From the IMG/VR virus record IMGVR_UViG_3300030118_005288, positions 18,250 through 70,445 of that record: a stretch of DNA of 52,196 bases; one strand, written 5' to 3'. The notes beneath the pieces are model-generated. The model did not search any database, was not told the origin of the DNA, and worked only from the letters and a program-made list of their open reading frames with translations. This document shows, one piece after another, positions 1,745 through 39,889 of this stretch (position 1 is the stretch's first letter; each line of letters begins with the position of its first letter). The position numbers were made by a program, and so were the translations under genes. The stretch comes from a virus.

Positions 1745-2503
1745 TTACAGATAATCAATCACTTGCGAGTGATCTACATTTTCTATAAGCTTGTCTACAG
1801 CCTGTCGTTTTAGCTGTGAAACGCGCACGTAAGCACCTGTGCCTTCGATACCTAGTTTAGCAGCTATTTCTTTTGCTGAGTGCTTGTCACAGTCAAGACC
1901 GTAGCTTAATCTTAGTACCTCGTATTCTTTTGGTTCTAAATGTTGTTTTAACAAGCTAGTTAAATAAGCATTTAAAAATAATTCGTTATAAGGTTCTGAC
2001 TTATCTTCTATTTGATATAAAGTATCGTCTTCATCTCTTATATTATCAATGCTTAAAAATATACTATTAAAGAACATAGCGACCATCTTTTTATCTTTAC
2101 CAAAGTTTTTACGTATTTCATTATACATGTGCTCTGGTAATCTCATTTGACCTCTGTTAATGTCAATAGCTCTACGTATACCACCTTTGATACGTTTAGA
2201 TAAAAAAGACTTTATTGTTTTTTCTTGATCGTCTGATTCTTCTAGTTTTTGCCAATCTATACGATCAACAGCTTTACACAAGTTTAAACTACCTTCTTGT
2301 ATTAAATCTAATATACTCATCACGCCTGAAGCTTGTTGTGTTGTTGCAAACTTTCTAGCTATATTTTCAGCAAGAGGTATAAATAAAGTTATTAATTCAT
2401 CTCTAGTATAATCTTTATATTTTTTGTTATTATCTATTCTTTTTATAGACTGTTCTAAATCTTTTTTATATTTAATATAGTTCTGTATATTATAATGTTT
2501 CAT
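1745..2503 (-). CDS. phage sigma-70-family RNA polymerase sigma factor
   Basis: The 252-residue protein carries sigma region 2 at about residues 37-115 (helices around IPLAENIARKFA, then ILDLIQEGSLNLCKAVDRID and FLSKRIKGGIRRAID). A RLPEHM segment at 121-126 resembles the start of region 3. Region 4 is at about 190-240 (LEPKEYEVLRLSYGLD, then SAKEIAAKLGI and the recognition helix VRVSQLKRQAVDKL). Region 1.1 is absent, as in alternative sigma factors. It would bind host core RNA polymerase and redirect it to phage promoters. The repeated 39-bp elements in this window are obvious candidate targets, although that link is inference. It is joined by an ATGA overlap to the HTH gene upstream (2500-3120), suggesting coordinated synthesis of two regulators. 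Confidence 0.85.
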   Translation of the reverse strand: MKHYNIQNYIKYKKDLEQSIKRIDNNKKYKDYTRDELITLFIPLAENIARKFATTQQASGVMSILDLIQEGSLNLCKAVDRIDWQKLEESDDQEKTIKSFLSKRIKGGIRRAIDINRGQMRLPEHMYNEIRKNFGKDKKMVAMFFNSIFLSIDNIRDEDDTLYQIEDKSEPYNELFLNAYLTSLLKQHLEPKEYEVLRLSYGLDCDKHSAKEIAAKLGIEGTGAYVRVSQLKRQAVDKLIENVDHSQVIDYL

Positions 2504-3120
2504 AATTGCTTATTTAAAAGTTCTTTTTCTCTTTTTAAATCTGTACACATATTTCTATGTATAGTTCTACTTGAGCAGTTTAACAAACCTGCTATTCTTG
2601 TCATTGTTATTTTTTTACCCATGTCATTTAAGTCTAGCATACACTGATAAATATCATCTGTATGTATACGTTTAGATCTACCTATTAACTCACCTACAAT
2701 ACGTAATTTTTCTTCTTTACTTATAGTTGTATTTGGTTTAAATATTACTTTACGTAGTTTGTTTCTAGGTGGTTGATCTAAATCACACATACTAACTTCA
2801 TATACTATTTTACGTAACAAATCTTTATGTATTGTAAATGTAATAAAATTATTTGACTTATCACAGATAATTTCAGCTAATTTTAAAAAATTATCTTGGT
2901 CTAGTTGCGGGTTTAAATACCACAGTACAAGCAAGTGCCATTTAAGAGACTTATAAGTATTTATTTTTGCTTTACTTCTAAATAGTTCGTAACACTCATA
3001 TGTACCGTTTAAATAAAACATATACACTTCATTATTTATATCTGGTGTATCTTTTATCGGATGCCTACGGTATACGATGCGATTATTATTTAAGTAATTT
3101 AGATTTCTATCTTGTGACAT
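2500..3120 (-). CDS. HTH-containing phage protein, possible regulator
   Basis: A 206-residue protein without a recognisable enzyme domain. Residues 171-192 (ITMTRIAGLLNCSSRTIHRNM) form a convincing helix-turn-helix of the kind seen in replication initiators and transcription regulators. The middle part is helical and aromatic (SLKWHLLVLWYLNP), and residues 130-165 are basic and helical. The C-terminus is highly charged. The stop overlaps the start of the sigma-factor gene by ATGA, so the two are translationally coupled. It may act with that sigma factor or as a replication-associated DNA-binding protein; the sequence alone does not decide. Confidence 0.6.
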   Translation of the reverse strand: MSQDRNLNYLNNNRIVYRRHPIKDTPDINNEVYMFYLNGTYECYELFRSKAKINTYKSLKWHLLVLWYLNPQLDQDNFLKLAEIICDKSNNFITFTIHKDLLRKIVYEVSMCDLDQPPRNKLRKVIFKPNTTISKEEKLRIVGELIGRSKRIHTDDIYQCMLDLNDMGKKITMTRIAGLLNCSSRTIHRNMCTDLKREKELLNKQL

Positions 3121-3137
3121 TAGCTTGTTACTAGTTA

Positions 3138-3263
3138 TTATTTAGGGGCTGTTGTCACAGTCCCCTGTGGTTTTAATTTTGCAATAATTATTCTTGTTTC
3201 ATTATCTTGAGGATATTTAATTTTATTAAATTCCTCAATACGTTTCTTTAGGTCTTCGTTCAT
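3138..3263 (-). CDS. small hypothetical protein (41 aa)
   Basis: ATG at 3263 reads MNEDLKKRIEEFNKIKYP and ends with TAA at 3140-3138. The product is 41 residues: a charged amphipathic helix, then a beta-like IIIAKLKP segment and a Pro/Thr-rich tail. It fills the gap between the HTH gene and the gene at 3235-3726, overlapping the latter's 3' end by 29 bases. The overlap is larger than typical here, so coding status is moderate. No family recognised. Confidence 0.45.
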   Translation of the reverse strand: MNEDLKKRIEEFNKIKYPQDNETRIIIAKLKPQGTVTTAPK

Positions 3264-4948: not shown

Positions 4949-4987
4949 TATTTATATTATCTTTAGTCATTCGTATTTGTTTTGTAT
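4949..4987 (-). promoter_or_regulatory. repeated phage promoter element, copy A
   Basis: Reading leftward, the element has ATACAA, then AAATACGAA and GATAATATAAAT, at the same spacing as the other seven copies (39 bp from first to last base). It overlaps the 3' end of the gene at 4963-5328 and lies immediately before the ATG at 4940. It probably drives the ligase operon. GATAATATAAAT is the likely -10 region and TACGAA or TACAA the upstream recognition sequence; those roles are inferred. Confidence 0.7.
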
Positions 4988-8284: not shown

Positions 8285-8536
8285 TTAATCTAATCCATCT
8301 CTATTTCCAGTTAATATACCTGCTTTTTTATCTAACTCAATACAGTTTAGTATTGCTTTGTGCATAGCGTCGTCTTTTCTTTTATTCTCGTCTGCCTTTT
8401 CCCACCAGTCGACTATAAATTTACTAGCATCACCTACGCTTTTTTCGTATACACATACATATTTACCATATCTATCCCACACTTCAACTTTAAAACCATA
8501 ATCACATGGTGTTAGTATATAATCTCTTTTACTCAT
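8285..8536 (-). CDS. hypothetical phage protein (83 aa)
   Basis: A soluble, mixed-charge protein starting MSKRDYILTPCDYGFKVEVW with a central VGDASKFIVDWWEKADENK segment and a helical end. It is the first complete gene after promoter copy E (ATG at 8536, 17 bases beyond the element). No family recognised. Confidence 0.55.
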   Translation of the reverse strand: MSKRDYILTPCDYGFKVEVWDRYGKYVCVYEKSVGDASKFIVDWWEKADENKRKDDAMHKAILNCIELDKKAGILTGNRDGLD

Positions 8537-8552
8537 AATATTATTTTATTTT

Positions 8553-8591
8553 TGTTTATATTATCAATTACTATTCGTATTTTGTTTGTAA
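8553..8591 (-). promoter_or_regulatory. repeated phage promoter element, copy E
   Basis: Leftward TTACAA, AAATACGAA and TTGATAATATAAAC. It overlaps the stop and last codons of the gene 8564-8737 and precedes the gene 8285-8536. Confidence 0.72.
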
Positions 8592-8737
8592 AAACTTTCA
8601 CACATATTATCATTTAAGTGTGGATCACTTGAATACACAGTTTTGATAGTGTATTTACCTTTTGTTATTGATTTTTCTAAAGCTTTTATTACTTTGCTAG
8701 TAACATCTTTACCAGTTTTTTTACAAGTTACTTTCAT
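8564..8737 (-). CDS. small phage protein (57 aa), unknown function
   Basis: ATG at 8737 reads MKVTCKKTGKDVTSKVIKAL and continues EKSITKGKYTIKTVYSSDPH to a tail NDNMCESFYKQNTNSN, whose final codons are promoter E. The product is basic with a helix and a beta hairpin. Direct precedents are not recognised. Coding is supported by a balanced amino-acid mix and an A/T-rich leader like those of its neighbours. Confidence 0.55.
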   Translation of the reverse strand: MKVTCKKTGKDVTSKVIKALEKSITKGKYTIKTVYSSDPHLNDNMCESFYKQNTNSN

Positions 8738-8770
8738 AATTATATATTTTAATAGTTAAACATTTATTGT

Positions 8771-8897
8771 AGTGTGGAGCAGAATCGAACTACTATTAAC
8801 CATTCACACTAATACTCATTCGCATTTTTTATAAGTCGCTAAACAAGTGGAACTACGACTCTATCTACTACTCGCTAATCAGCACTTCACGAGTAGT
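8771..8897 (-). ncRNA. candidate structured RNA with tRNA-like 3' end
   Basis: Noncoding gap (8738-8926) with three inverted repeats in the leftward RNA. They are ACTACTCG/CGAGTAGT (8890-8897 with 8867-8874), AGTCG/CGACT (8856-8860 with 8834-8838) and AGTGTG/CACACT (8805-8810 with 8771-8776). Inside the last is a near-perfect T-arm: AGTAG, loop TTCGATT, CTGCT (8778-8794). The 3' part therefore resembles the T-arm and acceptor of a tRNA, but no proper D-arm or anticodon loop can be fitted. It may be a degenerate tRNA, a tRNA mimic or an unrelated regulatory RNA. Confidence 0.4.
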
Positions 8898-8926
8898 TAT
8901 TATTAGATAAATTTCCAGTACTTTAA

Positions 8927-9157
8927 TTACTCACAAATTTCTCTTGCAATTACTGGCACATTATTACTTGCTGTATAACTTTTGTACTTTGACCAACATG
9001 GCATTTTTTCTAGTTTGTCTGACATTACTTCATACACTTTGTCGTGATTGTACTTTGCAGTTTTACCATTTTTGAAGTTTACTGTAATTACTGCATTTTT
9101 ACCAATTAGACTTTTTCTTACTACAAATCTTTTACTTACAATTTCATTTAATTTCAT
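8927..9157 (-). CDS. hypothetical phage protein (76 aa)
   Basis: A basic protein starting MKLNEIVSKRFVVRKSLIGK with a beta-like AVITVNFKNGKTAKYNHDKV and a C-terminal SYTASNNVPVIAREICE. It is probably a small beta-rich nucleic-acid or protein-binding protein; no family recognised. It is the first leftward gene after the switch region, driven by promoter copy F (38 bases upstream) and possibly copy G. Confidence 0.55.
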   Translation of the reverse strand: MKLNEIVSKRFVVRKSLIGKNAVITVNFKNGKTAKYNHDKVYEVMSDKLEKMPCWSKYKSYTASNNVPVIAREICE

Positions 9158-9194
9158 AACTTATCATTTTTTAATTTAACATTTATTTTATTTA

Positions 9195-9233
9195 CATTTA
9201 TATTATCAATAGCATTTCGTATTTACATTGTAA
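9195..9233 (-). promoter_or_regulatory. repeated phage promoter element, copy F
   Basis: Leftward TTACAA, AAATACGAA and TTGATAATATAAAT; a full match to the consensus. It precedes the gene 8927-9157. Confidence 0.75.
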
Positions 9234-9248
9234 AAGTACATTATTTGT

Positions 9249-9293
9249 TTAGTGTATAATATTACTTAGTATGTATTGCCCGCATTTTCTCAT
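9249..9293 (-). CDS. possible 14-codon leader peptide
   Basis: ATG at 9293, reading MRKCGQYILSNIIH then TAA, lies between promoters G and F. It would be the first ORF on a transcript from G. Such a short ORF may be chance. Confidence 0.2.
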   Translation of the reverse strand: MRKCGQYILSNIIH

Positions 9294-9320
9294 TGTATAA
9301 TATTTTATTTATTCGTTTTA

Positions 9321-9359
9321 CATTTATATTATCAATATAAGTTCGTAACTGTGTTGTAA
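9321..9359 (-). promoter_or_regulatory. repeated phage promoter element, copy G
   Basis: Leftward TTACAA, GTTACGAA (two changes from AAATACGAA) and TTGATAATATAAAT. It is the outermost leftward copy, 36 bases from the rightward copy H. Confidence 0.72.
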
Positions 9360-9394
9360 TAAATATGTGAAAATAAAAATGTGAAATATTATTT

Positions 9395-9433
9395 ATACAA
9401 AGTAAATACAAATTTGATTTGATAATATATATG
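9395..9433 (+). promoter_or_regulatory. repeated phage promoter element, copy H (rightward)
   Basis: Rightward ATACAA, AAATACAAA and TTGATAATATAT in exactly the same 39-base spacing as the leftward copies. It is the only copy I found on the plus strand and would give a roughly 270-base leader containing the G-rich tract before the first gene at 9712. Confidence 0.68.
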
Positions 9434-9499
9434 TAATGAGAATGTGAAAACGAAATAGTATTATTCTCGTACGAATGATAAATAGTTGTTAAAAAGTAG

Positions 9500-9559
9500 C
9501 CGGGGGCGGTTAGAAAAAGTCACTTTTGTAGGAGAGGGAGAGGTGGGTGGGGAGGGAGC
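9500..9559 (+). promoter_or_regulatory. G-rich purine tract with G-quadruplex motif
   Basis: In an AT-rich genome this stretch starts with CCGGGGGCGG and, after 9530, is almost pure purine. G-runs at 9536-9538, 9545-9547, 9549-9552 and 9554-9556 with loops of 6, 1 and 1 bases match the canonical G-quadruplex pattern on the plus strand. It lies downstream of promoter H, so it would also be present in that RNA. Role unknown: transcription or translation control, origin or packaging are all possible. Confidence 0.6.
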
Positions 9560-9682
9560 AACACTATACCCCTATATTTATAATAACTTTTTTTTATGAC
9601 ATTAGCCTATAAAGTATACCTAGTAACAGGCAAGTGTCACAGTGAAGTGTAAATATCTTTTTTTCTATGTAATAATCAAATA

Positions 9683-9696
9683 TTAGTGGTCACTAA
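9683..9696. promoter_or_regulatory. small dyad before the first rightward gene
   Basis: TTAGTG and CACTAA flank a two-base centre (GT), 15 bases before the ATG at 9712. It could be an operator or a short element in the leader. Confidence 0.35.
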
Positions 9697-9711
9697 CAAA
9701 AATACAAGAAA

Positions 9712-10587
9712 ATGGGATTCAAACTAAGATCTGGAAATAAGCCTAACTTCAAGATGATGGGTAGCAGTTCTCCTCTGTTAAAAGCTACAGACGGAAAGAA
9801 AACAAAAGAAGATTTATTAAACGAAGGTTTCACTCAACGTGATGCTGATCAAATGATAAAACACGGCGCACACACCGGTCATATTAAGCAAAAACCTAAG
9901 AAAAGCAGCGTAGGACCTAAGTTCGATGCTAGTAAAGGTTGGAAAAAAGGCAAGGCATACACAACTGATGGTGGTGTAAAAGGACACTATGTTACAGATC
10001 CTAATGGTAAGAAATACTTTATGACTAGTAGCGGTAAACTACACACGGGACAAATAGATGATTTAAAGCCAGAATCACCAGCTAAGTTTGATAAAAAACT
10101 AAAAGATCCTAAAAACAACAAGAAAACTAAAAAAGAAGATAGACCAGATCCTACTTACGAAGGAACAGACGAATATAGAAGCATCGACGAAATAAGAGAA
10201 GATGCCGATAAAGGTAAAAAAGATAGAAAAAAAGTTGTAACGCAAGATGATCAACCAACTTACGAAGGTACTGATGAATATAGAACTGTTGATGAAATAA
10301 GAGAAGATTCTGAAAGAGGTAAGAAAATAAGAGAAGATGAGGCCAAGGTAAAAGAAAAGACTAAGGTAAAAGAAAAGAAAAGTTCTCCAACAAAACAAAA
10401 GACTAAGCCTAAACCTAAAAGTTACAAAGGCAAAATGAAAAAGGTATTTCCAAAAAATTATACTAAAAAAGATATAGAGTTCTTAAAGAAACAACGTGAA
10501 GACATTGTTAGACGTGAAGATCTTGACGAAAAAGGTAAAAAAATTTTTGATAGAAACCAAGCTAAAATAGCTAAAAAGAAAAAATAA
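9712..10587 (+). CDS. Lys-rich tagged virion-cargo candidate (FKLRSGN tag)
   Basis: The 291-residue protein begins MGFKLRSGNKPNFKMMGSSS, the N-terminal tag shared with the products of 10592, 12002 and 13014. The rest is very Lys-rich and low in hydrophobic residues, with SPxK-type motifs (ESPAK at 121-125, SSPTK near 226) and a duplicated 24-residue unit (147-170 and 182-205; PTYEGTDEYR, then DEIRED and GKK). Residues 85-115 (YTTDGGVKGHYVTDPNGKKY) are beta-like and may be a small folded domain. I infer a DNA-associated internal virion or cargo protein. No enzyme motif is visible. It is the first rightward gene, 279 bases after promoter H, and is followed 4 bases later by the next tagged gene. 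Confidence 0.7.
   Translation: MGFKLRSGNKPNFKMMGSSSPLLKATDGKKTKEDLLNEGFTQRDADQMIKHGAHTGHIKQKPKKSSVGPKFDASKGWKKGKAYTTDGGVKGHYVTDPNGKKYFMTSSGKLHTGQIDDLKPESPAKFDKKLKDPKNNKKTKKEDRPDPTYEGTDEYRSIDEIREDADKGKKDRKKVVTQDDQPTYEGTDEYRTVDEIREDSERGKKIREDEAKVKEKTKVKEKKSSPTKQKTKPKPKSYKGKMKKVFPKNYTKKDIEFLKKQREDIVRREDLDEKGKKIFDRNQAKIAKKKK
10150..10326 (+). repeat. duplicated 24-codon unit within the first tagged gene
   Basis: Codons 147-170 (10150-10221) and 182-205 (10255-10326) encode nearly identical peptides (PTYEGTDEYR, then DEIRED and GKK) separated by 11 codons. Differences are conservative (Ser/Thr, Ile/Val, Asp/Glu, Lys/Arg), consistent with selection on the protein. Confidence 0.75.
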
Positions 10588-11132: not shown

Positions 11133-11612
11133 ATGGCATACACACCTTTTAAAATGAAGGGACACACGCTTCCAGGTATAAAACAAAAAGCATCGTCACC
11201 TTCAAAATTCAACAAAGGTCTAAAAGCAGCGTCAAAAGCTGGTAAATTAGACGGTAACCCAAAGTTTAAGGCAGCAGTTGACTCTGCACCTACAAAGAAA
11301 ATGCACGATGCACCTACTAAAAAGATGCACGATGCACCAACAAAGAAGATGCACGACGCTCCGACGAAAAAAATGCATGATTCTCCTACAAAAAAGATGC
11401 ATAAATCACCAACTAAGAAGATGCATGACTCTCCAGCAAAAGGATATAAGTCTGCTGCGCAAAGAAAAGCTGTTCACGCTAGCAAAAAAGACGGTGGTAA
11501 AGGTGCTCCAACTAAGAAAATGCATTCACCTGCTAAAATGGATCCCATGACAATGATGGCTGTGGGTAAAGTTGCTGGAAAATTAATGGGAGGAAAAAAA
11601 GAAGACAAGTAA
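11133..11612 (+). CDS. Lys-rich protein with SPxK motifs and eight-residue repeats
   Basis: The 159-residue product starts MAYTPFKMKGHTLPGIKQKA, a second tag class containing KMKG. From residue 52 to 99 it has six tandem copies of an eight-residue unit, (A/S)PTKKMH(D/K), followed by SPAKGYKS, and later copies APTKKMH and HSPAK. Ser/Thr-Pro-x-Lys motifs resemble the SPKK motifs of histone H1 tails, which bind the minor groove of AT-rich DNA, so DNA binding inside the capsid is plausible. Met and His in each repeat could also bind metal. The C-terminus has a Gly/Met/Ala helix (MTMMAVGKVAGKLMGG). It follows the preceding gene by 13 bases. No known family assigned. Confidence 0.68.
   Translation: MAYTPFKMKGHTLPGIKQKASSPSKFNKGLKAASKAGKLDGNPKFKAAVDSAPTKKMHDAPTKKMHDAPTKKMHDAPTKKMHDSPTKKMHKSPTKKMHDSPAKGYKSAAQRKAVHASKKDGGKGAPTKKMHSPAKMDPMTMMAVGKVAGKLMGGKKEDK
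11286..11429 (+). repeat. six in-frame 24-bp repeats encoding (A/S)PTKKMH(D/K)
   Basis: Six tandem units of 24 bases with many synonymous differences (GCA/GCT, ACA/ACT/ACG, AAG/AAA), so the peptide rather than the DNA is conserved. There are no spacers, so it is not a CRISPR array. Confidence 0.85.
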
Positions 11613-36800: not shown

Positions 36801-39800
36801 ATAAATTTATAGCTGGTCTACCAGGTACAAATAATGCGACTTACAACTCTCTTACACCAGGTTCTAATCCTGATTGGGTAGATCCAAACGATCAATCACA
36901 AGGTTGGTACCAAAAATATGATGACATCCGTTTATACTCTTATGATTCTACACCTGTTTTATTATTTCAGTGTGATACTGTAGCAGAAATGATAAACTGG
37001 GTTGCTACTAATTACGGATCGTTTTTCTCTAGTCCAAACGCAACTAACTTTCCAGCTCCATCTCCTGGAATGGCATATCAAAACTTTTGGGGTACTTGGT
37101 ATGTAGCTTGGCACAATACGTCTTTTGTTCCAGCTGGCTCTAATGCAAACAGAAGAAACAGTCTTATATACACCTCTCCTTGTCAAAGAGTGTTTTCGCC
37201 TGGAGGTGCAAGGTGTACAGAAATACAAGGCCCTGGTGGTGCTTACGCTACAATGCAACAATGTATTGAGGGTGGTTGTGGACAGCCAGAAGAATCTTAT
37301 AATTGTGATCCTCAAGCTGGTTGCGTTGATCCTGGAGATGGTACTGGTCAATTTTCTACTTATTGTGAGTGTGTTGAATCAAGGTGTTGTCCAGAATCAC
37401 AGGCATACTTTTTTGAATGTCAAAACATTAACCCGCCTTCAAACACGGCTATAGTTTTTGGTTGTATGGACGATGGTATTACAACTGATCCGTGGATTAC
37501 CCAAGATAGACCAGCTGGTTGGGTTGGTCCTGCTTCAAACTATTACGCTGGAGCTCAAGCTGATGATTGCAGTTGTATATACCAAACAGTTTCTACTTGG
37601 GACTGTATAAACAGTAGTTGCGTAGAGGTGTTTAATGGTACTGGTCAATATCCATCACTTGCTGTGTGTCAACAAAATTGCGCACCACCTTGTGCGGGTC
37701 CTTTTGTTCCAACGCCACCTGCATTAACACATATAATAAGTAATAGGCCTGGTGGATGTAATTTAGGAGATTATTTTAATACTGGTGCGGCTGAACTTGG
37801 TATAACAAACAATAGTATAAATCCTACTAATTGGTTTGTACAAGTGTTTGATAGTAATAATAACTTAATACACACGTCAGCTAATGTTTCTGGTGTTACT
37901 AGTATTATTGTTAACAATTTAGCACCTGGTATTTATACTTATAAGATTATTGATATTGATACTAATTGTGATTACGATTATACGTTTGAAATATTATGCG
38001 AAGACCCACCGCCTCCACCACCTGTAACTTATGATTGTGTACTGGTAAATGGTATACATACTTGTGTAGATCCAGGTACTGGTAACGGGCAATATACAGG
38101 GTCAAGCGCACTTACTGATTGTCAAACGGATCCAAACTCACCTTGTAATCCTAATTACCAAACAGGTGGTTGTACAGATCCTTGTGCTTGTAATTGGGAT
38201 CCAAATGCTAATTATGATGATGGTAGTTGTATTTATGATTGTGATACCGGCGGTCTAACACTTTTTGATGCTAGTGTTGGTTACCAAAACCAATTAAACG
38301 CTGGTGTGTACACGGGCTCAGAAATAACTATAATTACAAATGCCTTGAACGGTCTTGTAAGTGCGTCTAATAGTACTGGTGGACCTACGACTTGTTATGA
38401 TTGTGGTGGTCCTGGTGTAAATTTACCTAACGAGCCATATTTTGTAAATAACGAGTCAATGATGGAGTCTTTTGTTCGTACTTATGGAATAGACACGGAT
38501 ACAAGAGATTATAAGTTTTATAGAAGCCAAACTTATTTAAATCCTTCAATTAGAACCTATATGAATTTAAGAATTTCCCATATAGATCTTAATGGTTGGT
38601 ACCAGCAACCTCAAAACTTCTTTACTTGGAGAGATTACATTGACACTGCTATTGCAACAGGAGTAATAACAAACGTGACAGATCTTATTGATGTTGGTTG
38701 TACTACTGGAACTTGTCAAACCGCACCTCATCAGTTTGACTCATCAACTGGTTATAGAATTGATTTAGATGCTGTAAGATATGTTATACATACTAGTATG
38801 GAAGCTGCTGGTGTTGAAACTTGTAATGGTATTATTAGTACTTATAATCAAAGTGGTCATGGTCAATATGACGATAAAAACTGCGATAGAACTAATGTTA
38901 CACTGTGTGATCCTTGTGTTGTTCCAGCTACAAATCCTTGTGGCCCACCGCCACCACAGACTACGTATCCTTGCATACCAGGTGACCCTAATTCTTGTAT
39001 GCCGGGTTATACACCTTTAGGCCCTAACGTTTACACAAATCTTCAAGACTGTATAACAGCTTGCCATAGGATTGGTGTGGGTGAAGAACCTTTAAGTTAT
39101 GATTGTATTAATGGAACATGTGTTGATCCTGGAACTGGTAATGGTCAATATGCTACATTAGCCGCTTGTCAAGCTGTTTGTAATATTAGTCCAGTTGGAC
39201 AAAACTACGCATGTGAAGGTCCTGCTGGTTCTCAAAATTGTATTCCAACCTCTAGCCCTGTTGGTACTTACGGAAGTACAGTTGTATATGGTGACCAGGC
39301 AACATGTCTAGCTAATTGTGGTACGGTTAGTTCTACTGATATAGCGTGGGGAGGTTGTTGTCACCCATCTTCAATGGAGTACTCTCAACTTGGTCCTAAT
39401 GGTCTTCCTTGTCACGCAGACAGCCTATGTCTTTGTTACTACGATCCGTTTCATTGTACTCTTCCAAATTGTTTTGTTGGTGACACTAAAGTGTTATTAG
39501 CAGATGGTTCAAGTAAAAACATTGAAAATGTTGTGATTGGAGATATAGTAAGTTCTTACGATCAAGAAAACAAAGAGTTATCCGATGCTGTTGTAGTAGC
39601 TACACGATCGCAAGTTTCAAAAAACATGGTTGAATTTACTTTTAGCAACGGGGTTACAACAAAAAATACTTCGGACCACCCTTACTATGTAGAGCAAAAA
39701 GGTTGGGTATCATACGCAGATGATTTAAAAGTTGGCGATGTTTGCTATACTAATGAAAATAATAATATAAATAAAGTAACACTAACTAATATCAAAGAGG

Positions 39801-39889
39801 TTGATGGAGATAGTAAGACATACATATTTACACTCGATAGACACAAAACCTTCTTTGCAAACAGTGTGTTAGTTCACAATAAAGGATAA
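30803..39889 (+). CDS. giant virion protein: tail-hub-like N-terminus, Cys-rich modules, C-terminal Hint domain
   Basis: The 3,028-residue protein begins MPEMKNSFQRGKMNKDLDER and RLVPNGEYRDALNVQVSTSD, like stabilisation or hub proteins of podovirus tails. Residues 1-1100 look beta-rich; a Cys-rich stretch follows around 1180-1230. From about 1930 there are Cys modules of the form Y-x-C-x(n)-C-V-D-P-G-x-G-x-G-Q-Y-x(n)-C-x-x-x-C, plus one GCTDPCACNWDPNANYDDGS unit typical of marine Flavobacteriia adhesins. Residues 2890-3026 form a Hint domain: Cys2890 in CFVGDTKVLLADGS, the block TSDHPYYV, and the end FFANSVLVHN before KG. The Hint part could self-cleave or cross-link. I infer a receptor-contacting tail protein, with the N-terminal role inferred from position. 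Confidence 0.7.
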   Translation: MPEMKNSFQRGKMNKDLDERLVPNGEYRDALNVQVSTSDTSDVGSLQTVMGNTALTSVFPSDSVCVGSITDEKNDKIYWLVAGATTDVIAEYDYVSETVEPVCVDRHAFYGRRTLNFRRENLVTGLNVMDGFIFWTDNFSEPKKVNIQRCKLGSSGFNNHTLFMVKDVSIGAIPNNFTPALDINGVSIPIQEKHLTIIKKGPDAAPVLEMRDTTVGDWDGDGIVGGSELSAPVTNASSITFLDGDGEFVPNITINTASGTDFPPDSFLNIYKSNDRSIKVRVKINGPGGPVGYNVDILSGNKDIAGETDLIVELEQEEALFEFKFPRFAYRYKYEDGEYSPYSPFTQPAFLPGRFIYLPKEGYNLGMVNRLRRLAIKDFVHTRSMPEDVVAIDVLYKESNSPNVYSVKTIKRRGYNPDKWDEYNAVSEDLVVENGIQIGDGWAGRTKGFLPITTEMIHAVLPSNQLLRPWDNVPRKALAQEIVGNRLVYGNYLQNYNLSNNATGDSNIKVDLKVGIRSRSLGSISPEEVEAGPNRRSIKYSPSKSLKTLRTYQVGVVYIDKYGRETPVFSEDKRGRTATGAATSQASVYNKKENANKKNSLTVELKNDPPDWATHFKLFVKETSNEYYNLAMDRWYDAEDGNIWLSFPSAERNKVDEETFLILKKAHDANTFISAPARYKIIAISNEAPRFIKLSNISQGGIIDDGATLGLSAAGFPLEGGFFIYVEKSNFENVGWKESLVNQDISQVFMRVKSASGISEYYRLKQITFDASTGTYYKLESDRVFGPDMAHTSPDGTFLNRITNCELQLIKRIPEDKAEFEGRFFVKVLKDNILIESLNITPNSGLDYIAVASMQVQYINPLAAQATGGWDGFGTNKYKISMDKRNDDRWTRPGSSAPAGHGQDFWKYASDDTTTNNSNSLAISSGWFIDAVEGFRPWKGNYWGKNVGERSTGAIDRPSAWAVNFCWGFFSSYHNDFDDGEFDRRLHALGTNTYGTTGNNYLGSSGSKKMKSPNNVLATTPSADGGPIAPGVGIDPNSGIINLSYSGLNEDDGGLTATSGNWADVLTTHYFVDAAKHAADELFIGKLLTPGTIWRWKEDPDQVLYKTVAMTGLSTTSTPYTSAQWTNEGLDFDGNPGIVLFNYVSFADYLINNHTHRVEYCWGSGDKEDDKPDWVTRNIGNHTASGTCCGGCIPCGGGLAWTLVNTSCSITAGTGCGCNHTGTSGSNAWGLIPNYPEHYKFPNLVDDWAKSKNKRRRFRFKAETLSDPTIPLGGTGHNYLPTNNPTFAPHFDHTATAITIDPSTNAAFVDPAPGIRPDGMHTGYTEPTGNWTWNPGTGSTTETLIPQYKRWSSDNIAITPAPGSVTWEIVEPFTPGEGKFSSTNPAIWETEPKEDVGLDIYYEVGHKYPIYLNDRTIEQFVGAVHEDISKNSYVQCWDPAPPIGNSAGTISLNAGGNSDMRVYAAHGRFVQLADTLGNVLDANNPAHILPTTGAYLIFYRADGSTTEAHVGVGTYNNNGTWFELVGNSFNDDVGVHSKMIEVPWFNCYSFGNGVESDRIRDDFNQVTIDNGPKASTTLEEPYLEDRRKSGFIWSGIYNSKSGVNNLNQFIQAEAITKDANPVYGSIQKMHVRDNDLVAFCEDRVLKVLANKDALFNADGNTNLVSTNRVLGNIRPFVGDFGISQNPESFASDSYRSYFSDTSRGAIVRLSQDGLTAISNLGMKDWFADNLPSYNRIIGSFDDNKNEYNITLTKVNKSGYITPSYGYMPKTLSFNEPANGWVSFKSFIKESGLSLNNSYYTYFEGNLYQHHDNEIRNNFYNVQYESSVDVLFNQAPGVIKSFKTLNYEGTQSRVTPDLNNNPDYYDNYLKQGWYVNEMISDVQELGVMEFWDKEDKWFSQIKGVATEWLNDGTAGNIDPREFSFQGIGNAFDVECADCPDVVSYDCINQPAGSVSDCDNRTLLPLPPGNYNPGNYTVHPGHFRDEDYWFLPGNVNKKRSDYKFIAGLPGTNNATYNSLTPGSNPDWVDPNDQSQGWYQKYDDIRLYSYDSTPVLLFQCDTVAEMINWVATNYGSFFSSPNATNFPAPSPGMAYQNFWGTWYVAWHNTSFVPAGSNANRRNSLIYTSPCQRVFSPGGARCTEIQGPGGAYATMQQCIEGGCGQPEESYNCDPQAGCVDPGDGTGQFSTYCECVESRCCPESQAYFFECQNINPPSNTAIVFGCMDDGITTDPWITQDRPAGWVGPASNYYAGAQADDCSCIYQTVSTWDCINSSCVEVFNGTGQYPSLAVCQQNCAPPCAGPFVPTPPALTHIISNRPGGCNLGDYFNTGAAELGITNNSINPTNWFVQVFDSNNNLIHTSANVSGVTSIIVNNLAPGIYTYKIIDIDTNCDYDYTFEILCEDPPPPPPVTYDCVLVNGIHTCVDPGTGNGQYTGSSALTDCQTDPNSPCNPNYQTGGCTDPCACNWDPNANYDDGSCIYDCDTGGLTLFDASVGYQNQLNAGVYTGSEITIITNALNGLVSASNSTGGPTTCYDCGGPGVNLPNEPYFVNNESMMESFVRTYGIDTDTRDYKFYRSQTYLNPSIRTYMNLRISHIDLNGWYQQPQNFFTWRDYIDTAIATGVITNVTDLIDVGCTTGTCQTAPHQFDSSTGYRIDLDAVRYVIHTSMEAAGVETCNGIISTYNQSGHGQYDDKNCDRTNVTLCDPCVVPATNPCGPPPPQTTYPCIPGDPNSCMPGYTPLGPNVYTNLQDCITACHRIGVGEEPLSYDCINGTCVDPGTGNGQYATLAACQAVCNISPVGQNYACEGPAGSQNCIPTSSPVGTYGSTVVYGDQATCLANCGTVSSTDIAWGGCCHPSSMEYSQLGPNGLPCHADSLCLCYYDPFHCTLPNCFVGDTKVLLADGSSKNIENVVIGDIVSSYDQENKELSDAVVVATRSQVSKNMVEFTFSNGVTTKNTSDHPYYVEQKGWVSYADDLKVGDVCYTNENNNINKVTLTNIKEVDGDSKTYIFTLDRHKTFFANSVLVHNKG
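36598..39319 (+). repeat. Cys-rich module array in the giant virion gene
   Basis: At least seven imperfect modules occur (around 36637, 37300, 37600, 38027, 38164, 38962, 39097 and 39202). Most have an aromatic-x-Cys start, Cys-[VM]-[DP], a Gly-rich GTGQY or GNGQY core and a Cys-x-x-x-Cys end. The one at 38164-38243 is of the DDGSC type. Coordinates are approximate. Confidence 0.7.
39470..39880 (+). other. Hint (intein/BIL-like) domain coding region
   Basis: Codons 2890-3026 encode a 137-residue Hint fold. It opens with Cys2890 (CFVGDTKVLLADG), has the second block TSDHPYYVEQKGW, the LKVGDVCYT strand, the LDRHKTFFAN block and ends VHN. Residues after Asn3026 are only Lys-Gly, without the Cys/Ser/Thr nucleophile required for splicing, so it belongs with bacterial intein-like domains that cleave or transfer rather than splice. 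Confidence 0.8.

Follow-up and report, generated by a model that had tools for sequence, protein, structure and literature searches.

Late transcription in the phages T4 (gp55/gp33) and SPO1 (gp33/gp34) proceeds from promoters which are read by a phage sigma factor together with a partner protein. Plasmid initiators are characterized by a dual-site pattern, whereby one site locates to the initiator's own gene and one to another position. A third related system is human mitochondrial LSP/CSBII, which is transcription-primed (PMC6317783).

The locus described here derives from an uncultured virus. The window, meaning the whole stretch of DNA that was analysed (52,196 nucleotides), comprises bases 18250-70445 of a 70,445-base IMG/VR virus record, for which a 42-bp exact end repeat, located inside a reading frame, implies a circular map. 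Its terminase is 64% identical to that of Podoviridae sp. MW202828, 45% to those of Flavobacterium phages (elemo group) and 38% to that of Cellulophaga phage phi38:1, which points to Bacteroidetes as the presumable hosts. The leftward arm encodes DNA metabolism functions and a sigma factor, while tagged proteins, GroEL, packaging and capsid genes make up the rightward arm. The tag is a short N-terminal sequence, MxFKLRSGN or M-x-[FY]K-MKG, shared by the rightward proteins starting at 9712, 10592, 11133, 12002, 13014, 16821 and 17482 and also present on the first genes of relatives (e.g., L086:3975); possibly it serves as a virion-targeting signal. Within one of the tagged proteins a 24-nt repeat coding for APTKKMHD was observed (11286-11453), and a 3028-aa protein was found to possess a C-terminal domain of the Hint/PT-HINT autoprocessing type (39460-39889). 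All conclusions reported here were drawn from DNA sequence, and the related contigs are to be considered as non-independent samples. The coordinates of the features are compiled in Table 1.

Table 1. Features of the divergent region, the module and the dyad-associated genes (window coordinates).
Feature	Position	Strand	Remark
Sigma-factor gene	1745..2503	-	Sigma70_r4, phrog_351; overlaps gene 2500-3120
Candidate dyad-binding protein gene	2500..3120	-	predicted C-terminal helix-turn-helix
Second dyad copy	3112..3159	.	over start codon of gene 2500-3120
Second leftward early promoter, divergent region	9196..9233	-	matrix scan
Nearest leftward early promoter (copy G)	9322..9359	-	matrix scan
Sole rightward early-type promoter copy (ATACAAAGTAAATACAAATTTGATTTGATAATATATAT)	9395..9432	+	matrix score 25.9
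G-block 1 (GCCGGGGGCGG)	9499..9509	+	module alignment
Conserved TTT between the G-blocks	9524..9526	+	97%, 97%, 87% of 67 copies
G-block 2	9531..9558	+	contains G-quadruplex motif 9536-9556; module alignment
Module core GGAGCAACACTATACCCCTATATTTATAATAA	9555..9586	+	proposed -10 box TATAAT at 9579-9584
50-bp dyad (half-site GTGACATTAGCCTATTA, inverted)	9592..9643	.	proposed operator; 1 of 2 genome sites
Conserved TGTAAATATCTTTTTTTCTATGTAATAAT before first rightward gene	9648..9676	+	translation start region or second promoter
First rightward gene	9712..10587	+	N-terminal tag MGFKLRSGN

The G-rich module and its distribution

The G-tract ahead of the first rightward gene was identified as part of a conserved non-coding module of ~95 nt, which is common to dozens of uncultured ocean phages. 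On the sense strand ahead of this gene, the module consists, in this order, of a G-block, TTT, a second G-block and GGNGCAACAC-N4-CNCC-WATATTTRTAATA, the arrangement being nearly free of gaps. Column conservation is highest at GC.AC.C and ATATTT.TAA, where the 67 aligned copies show almost no gaps. A core matrix from whose training set the window's copy had been excluded scored 43.1 at the window core versus 9.4 at the next best site of the 70-kb record. As neither another core of comparable score was present in the record nor another TGTAAAT..CTATGTAATAAT element in the window, repeated late promoters were rejected as an explanation. For the conserved stretch directly preceding the first rightward gene (Table 1), a translation start region and a second promoter are proposed as alternatives. 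In five related copies (L106, L124, L140, L141, L147) G-block 2 has been lost while the core is retained, hence the G-block may not be essential. In L024 (901-1220) a stretch of ~300 nt dense in GGGAT-like repeats lies ahead of the module, the G-rich part of which can therefore expand.

In L003, from a phage with 97% identity at the query protein, the 317-base region extending from the rightward promoter to the first rightward gene is preserved at 99%, with the G-tract unchanged. A 97-aa gene located 2 kb downstream was searched against IMG/VR and the best 80 of 319 loci were taken, which were thus selected through similarity at one gene. An iterative profile search over 164 sequences (the 80 loci, earlier ones and the window, with six duplicates dropped) identified the module in 68 of them, namely the window, L024, L168 and 65 of the 79 kept loci, whereby many of the module-negative sequences, which had been fetched by terminase, stop short of the region. 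These counts contain the near-duplicates L127/L128 and L137/L139 as well as the doubtful L105, a weak match without core which is probably a false member; upon removal of copies more than 92% identical, 63 remain. A scan of all IMG/VR viral contigs for the core only, which does not depend on any gene, returned 31 contigs with one match each. An open frame of the same direction follows 27-304 nt downstream in all 30 core copies checked (L169 left out); in 27 of them the sequence covers all 55 bases preceding the core, among which 10-32 are G. Across 84,980 bacterial and archaeal species, each represented by one genome, the core pattern had no match, rendering it a specific marker of these phages, and named phages yielded only short chance matches to the module. 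The strict core pattern matched seven of 21 records, once each, an exact match being absent from the other 14.

With regard to the G-tract itself, G5 at 9502-9506 and GGGAGAGGTGGGTGGGGAGGG at 9536-9556 sit in the window's richest G 60-mer (31 G). The G-quadruplex motif that the first-pass annotation had reported within this tract is real and turned out to be the sole motif of its kind (G3+, loops 1-7) on both strands of the window; when the window was shuffled 200 times under a Markov model, two of the shuffles had a plus-strand motif of this type. Among 66 module copies, 18 possess such a canonical motif versus 0.8% of composition shuffles, and a G4Hunter score of at least 1.2 was reached by 52 copies versus 23% of shuffles. 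What the modules share is thus G-runs on the sense strand, the canonical quadruplex itself not being conserved, and the data support that the G-tract is maintained by selection.

Promoters of the divergent region

The matrix for early promoters was built on eight leftward copies, one of which lies outside the window while seven lie on its minus strand (GATAATA at 4961, 6355, 7493, 7807, 8565, 9207 and 9333). When the whole 70,445-base record was scanned, a single plus-strand copy was found, the runner-up on this strand scoring 10.8; in ten Markov genomes the best score per genome amounted to 5-13, as compared to 25.9 for the rightward copy. The first-pass annotation had described this copy as the only one of its orientation, 36 nt apart from copy G, which the scan confirmed, and the distance of ~270 nt over which a leader would run from this promoter to the ATG at 9712 was found to be correct as well. 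Its view of the divergent region as a regulatory centre is likewise supported. An intrinsic terminator (stem-loop followed by a T-run) was looked for between 9150 and 9800, and none was found.

A refined matrix comprising 243 distinct leftward sites was applied to the 56 modules with enough upstream sequence. Fourteen of these carry a plus-strand early-type promoter in the preceding ~200 nt (scores 6-35), whereas -5.7 was the highest upstream plus-strand score in the other 42, the 99.9th percentile of the control being 0.9 over 2,398 windows. With a stricter matrix such a promoter was identified in 13 of 55 modules, with four control hits in 515 kb. The rightward early-type copy is hence genuine and beyond chance, yet an optional addition, and since only a quarter of the modules (14/56) have one upstream, the module is independent of it. 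This likewise bears on the suggestion that the G-tract, as an unusual feature, takes effect in a leader transcribed from the promoter at 9395: the feature as such is real and selected, but its role in such a leader is not supported, as the module occurs without this promoter in 42 of the 56 relatives.

The dyad and its associated genes

The record holds exactly two sites of the 50-bp dyad, one at the module and one at the start of gene 2500-3120. Measured from the start of the module, the dyad begins after 91-101 nt in 40 of the 68 loci and after 115 and 126 nt in two; in 17 loci it is located 109-1402 nt upstream, two of these having an additional weak downstream copy, and in the remaining nine it is not within the stretch covered. 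A homologue of gene 2500-3120 was identified in 17 of 37 records searched, many of which are fragments. In all 18 homologous loci the start codon (ATGTCA) resides inside the 3' arm of the dyad and the sigma gene adjoins; together with the window's gene, all homologues thus have the dyad at their own start, which by sequence is the arrangement expected of an autoregulated operator. In one 79-kb record (G012; L187, L191) two homologues were observed, each with its own dyad.

The encoded protein matched neither Pfam nor PHROG, and no match to the gene was obtained in 50,697 phage records. Its structural model (mean pLDDT 86.9) shows a C-terminal helix-turn-helix-like domain, whereby residues 151-203 align weakly to a TetR/DtxR-like fold (best Z 6.1, rmsd 3.7, 53 residues); Foldseek returned no hit for the protein at E below 0.001. 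We infer that the dyad is bound by this protein. At the start of gene 2500-3120 the dyad may also act as an RNA hairpin hiding the start codon (z -2.83).

Readings of the module and comparison with known systems

With moderate confidence it is suggested that the G-tract constitutes the upstream part of a single-copy, G-rich late promoter module with operator, which serves the rightward operon. TATAATA would represent the -10 box and GGNGCAAC, ~17 nt before it, would replace the -35 box; RNA polymerase, probably guided by the sigma factor from 1745-2503, would initiate near 9590, which would consequently leave the G-tract outside the main mRNA. The protein of gene 2500-3120 would bind the dyad, thereby repressing its own gene, and would act as operator protein at the late start, while in this phage, as in a minority of its relatives, the early-type rightward promoter would also transcribe through the module. 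In line with a promoter, a -10-like box precedes the gene on the sense strand at a short, regular distance, and GGNGCAAC forms a fixed upstream block, its spacing to TATAATA showing hardly any gaps across 67 copies. The first ATG that opens a frame of 50 codons or more follows the end of TATAATA after 26-52 nt in 23 of the 68 loci, after 91-130 nt in 30, where the dyad mostly accounts for the extra length, and after a longer distance in 15; for leftward early promoters the median distance to their own ATG is 27 nt, with 172 of 200 lying within 60 nt. One core per contig in 31 contigs, with a frame following in each of the 30 checked, also supports a promoter, as do the constant position of the dyad in 40 of 68 loci and its placement over the start codon of the partner gene, adjacent to the sigma gene, in 18 of 18, and the 42 modules devoid of an early-type rightward promoter necessitate another one. 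Since the TATAATA box at the end of the module lies near the first gene, the 5' end of the 9712 mRNA is expected downstream of 9560. A sigma-70 scan listed no promoter at 9579, a result which speaks against the sigma-70 class only. Against a promoter it can be held that it would be unusual for G-blocks to reach up to 80 nt ahead of a -10 box, that in 15 of 68 loci more than 130 nt separate the module from the first frame, that the dyad is located upstream or is absent at many loci, that the helix-turn-helix match is weak, that G-block 2 is dispensable in the five copies named above, and that the early-type promoter found in 14 of 56 modules would be superfluous if the module were the sole promoter.

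A transcription-primed replication origin at the module is regarded as unlikely. Such an origin would have RNA from a rightward promoter pair with the C-rich template at the G-blocks (as R-loop, possibly as hybrid quadruplex), upon which the AT-rich stretch would open and the RNA would prime DNA synthesis, with the dyad binding an initiator, which would regulate its own gene as well. This is consistent with the G-runs locating to the non-template strand of the rightward genes, with the AT-rich stretch and T-tract immediately following the G-blocks and with the confinement of the dyad to the module and its own gene; furthermore, the phage encodes a toprim/DnaB-like primase-helicase, and mitochondrial LSP/CSBII provides a precedent (PMC6317783). 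The cumulative GC skew has its minimum at 9218, but this switch falls where gene direction changes and is therefore uninformative on an origin. Further points against priming are the 42 modules without an upstream early-type promoter, which may yet carry promoters of other types, and the fact that Pfam and PHROG searches recognised no initiator family. A combination of both functions, where one single element would act as late promoter and replication origin of a large uncultured marine phage group, with the non-template G-blocks retaining RNA in an R-loop (hybrid quadruplex) and the dyad protein, encoded beside the sigma factor, determining whether the element is repressed, transcribed late or used for priming, as at CSBII, is considered rather improbable.

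Still more doubtful is the reading, going back to the first-pass annotation, of the G-tract as a regulatory element in the 270-nt leader from the 9395 promoter, where an RNA quadruplex would influence how the tagged genes are transcribed or translated. Both the promoter copy and the G-tract are real, the G3 motif and G4Hunter frequencies given above exceed those of the shuffles, and GGG/CCC pairing with G-U changes is present in the module alignment. However, in addition to the promoter missing from 42 modules and the canonical motif being restricted to 18 of 66 copies, the RNA of three modules did not fold better than shuffles (z 0.04, 0.14 and 1.16, by a method which omits quadruplexes), the consensus fold has an energy of -2.64 with 8 pairs, covariation across the copies is slight, and a mutual-information search of the alignment revealed no coherent helix. 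Rfam gave no match in the window at gathering score and nothing above threshold in nine relatives, hits within 8500-10000 being at chance level, far below threshold. On the basis of fold z-scores, covariation and Rfam, a structured RNA leader or named RNA family was rejected, and an action of the G-tract through the leader is thus disfavoured.

Finally, a packaging site or genome end at the module is very improbable: 14 of the 31 contigs found by the core (L192-L219, L118, L168, L169) do end within 470 nt upstream of it, but these ends scatter over 14-461 nt without a single preferred base, assemblies can break at G-rich sequence, this record and others above 60 kb continue through the module, and the circular map derived from the end repeat leaves no end here. 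The excess of contig ends near the core may hence reflect an assembly break in a G-rich or variable region, or something physical.

Taken as a late promoter module, the locus would provide a candidate early/late switch for a widespread ocean phage group, consisting of one DNA element, one early-arm promoter class, one sigma factor and one candidate regulator that has an operator of its own. For a genome of 30-35% GC, a promoter this rich in G would be unusual. In the literature searched, the coverage of which is poor for subscription journals, neither a paper describing the element nor a description of the control regions of this group was found.

Among the named relatives, of which parts were read, phi38:1 (L170:11359-11430) and MW202828 (L084:8418-8480) resemble the module phages in that the plus-strand 60-mer with the most G falls into the early/late junction region, whereas reading of this region revealed no GGNGCAACAC..TATAATA core; in four of six named relatives the richest such 60-mer, in the parts read, is not at an early/late junction with the module. 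With autoregulated plasmid-initiator operators the locus has in common that the same dyad marks both the start of the gene itself and one further regulatory site, but the dyads are inverted at both sites, no iteron array was seen and no initiator family was recognised. As compared to mitochondrial LSP/CSBII, which has a promoter near a G-rich non-template tract (PMC6317783), the similarity lies in this arrangement, while most modules lack the upstream promoter and an R-loop or priming at the module would be hypothetical. The late systems of T4 and SPO1 differ from the present one, as here a single G-rich element of ~95 nt is found with a dyad resembling a binding site of the partner at the start. 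The likeness to them lies in the layout: a sigma gene and a small gene for a DNA-binding-like protein occur together, and one element precedes the late operon.
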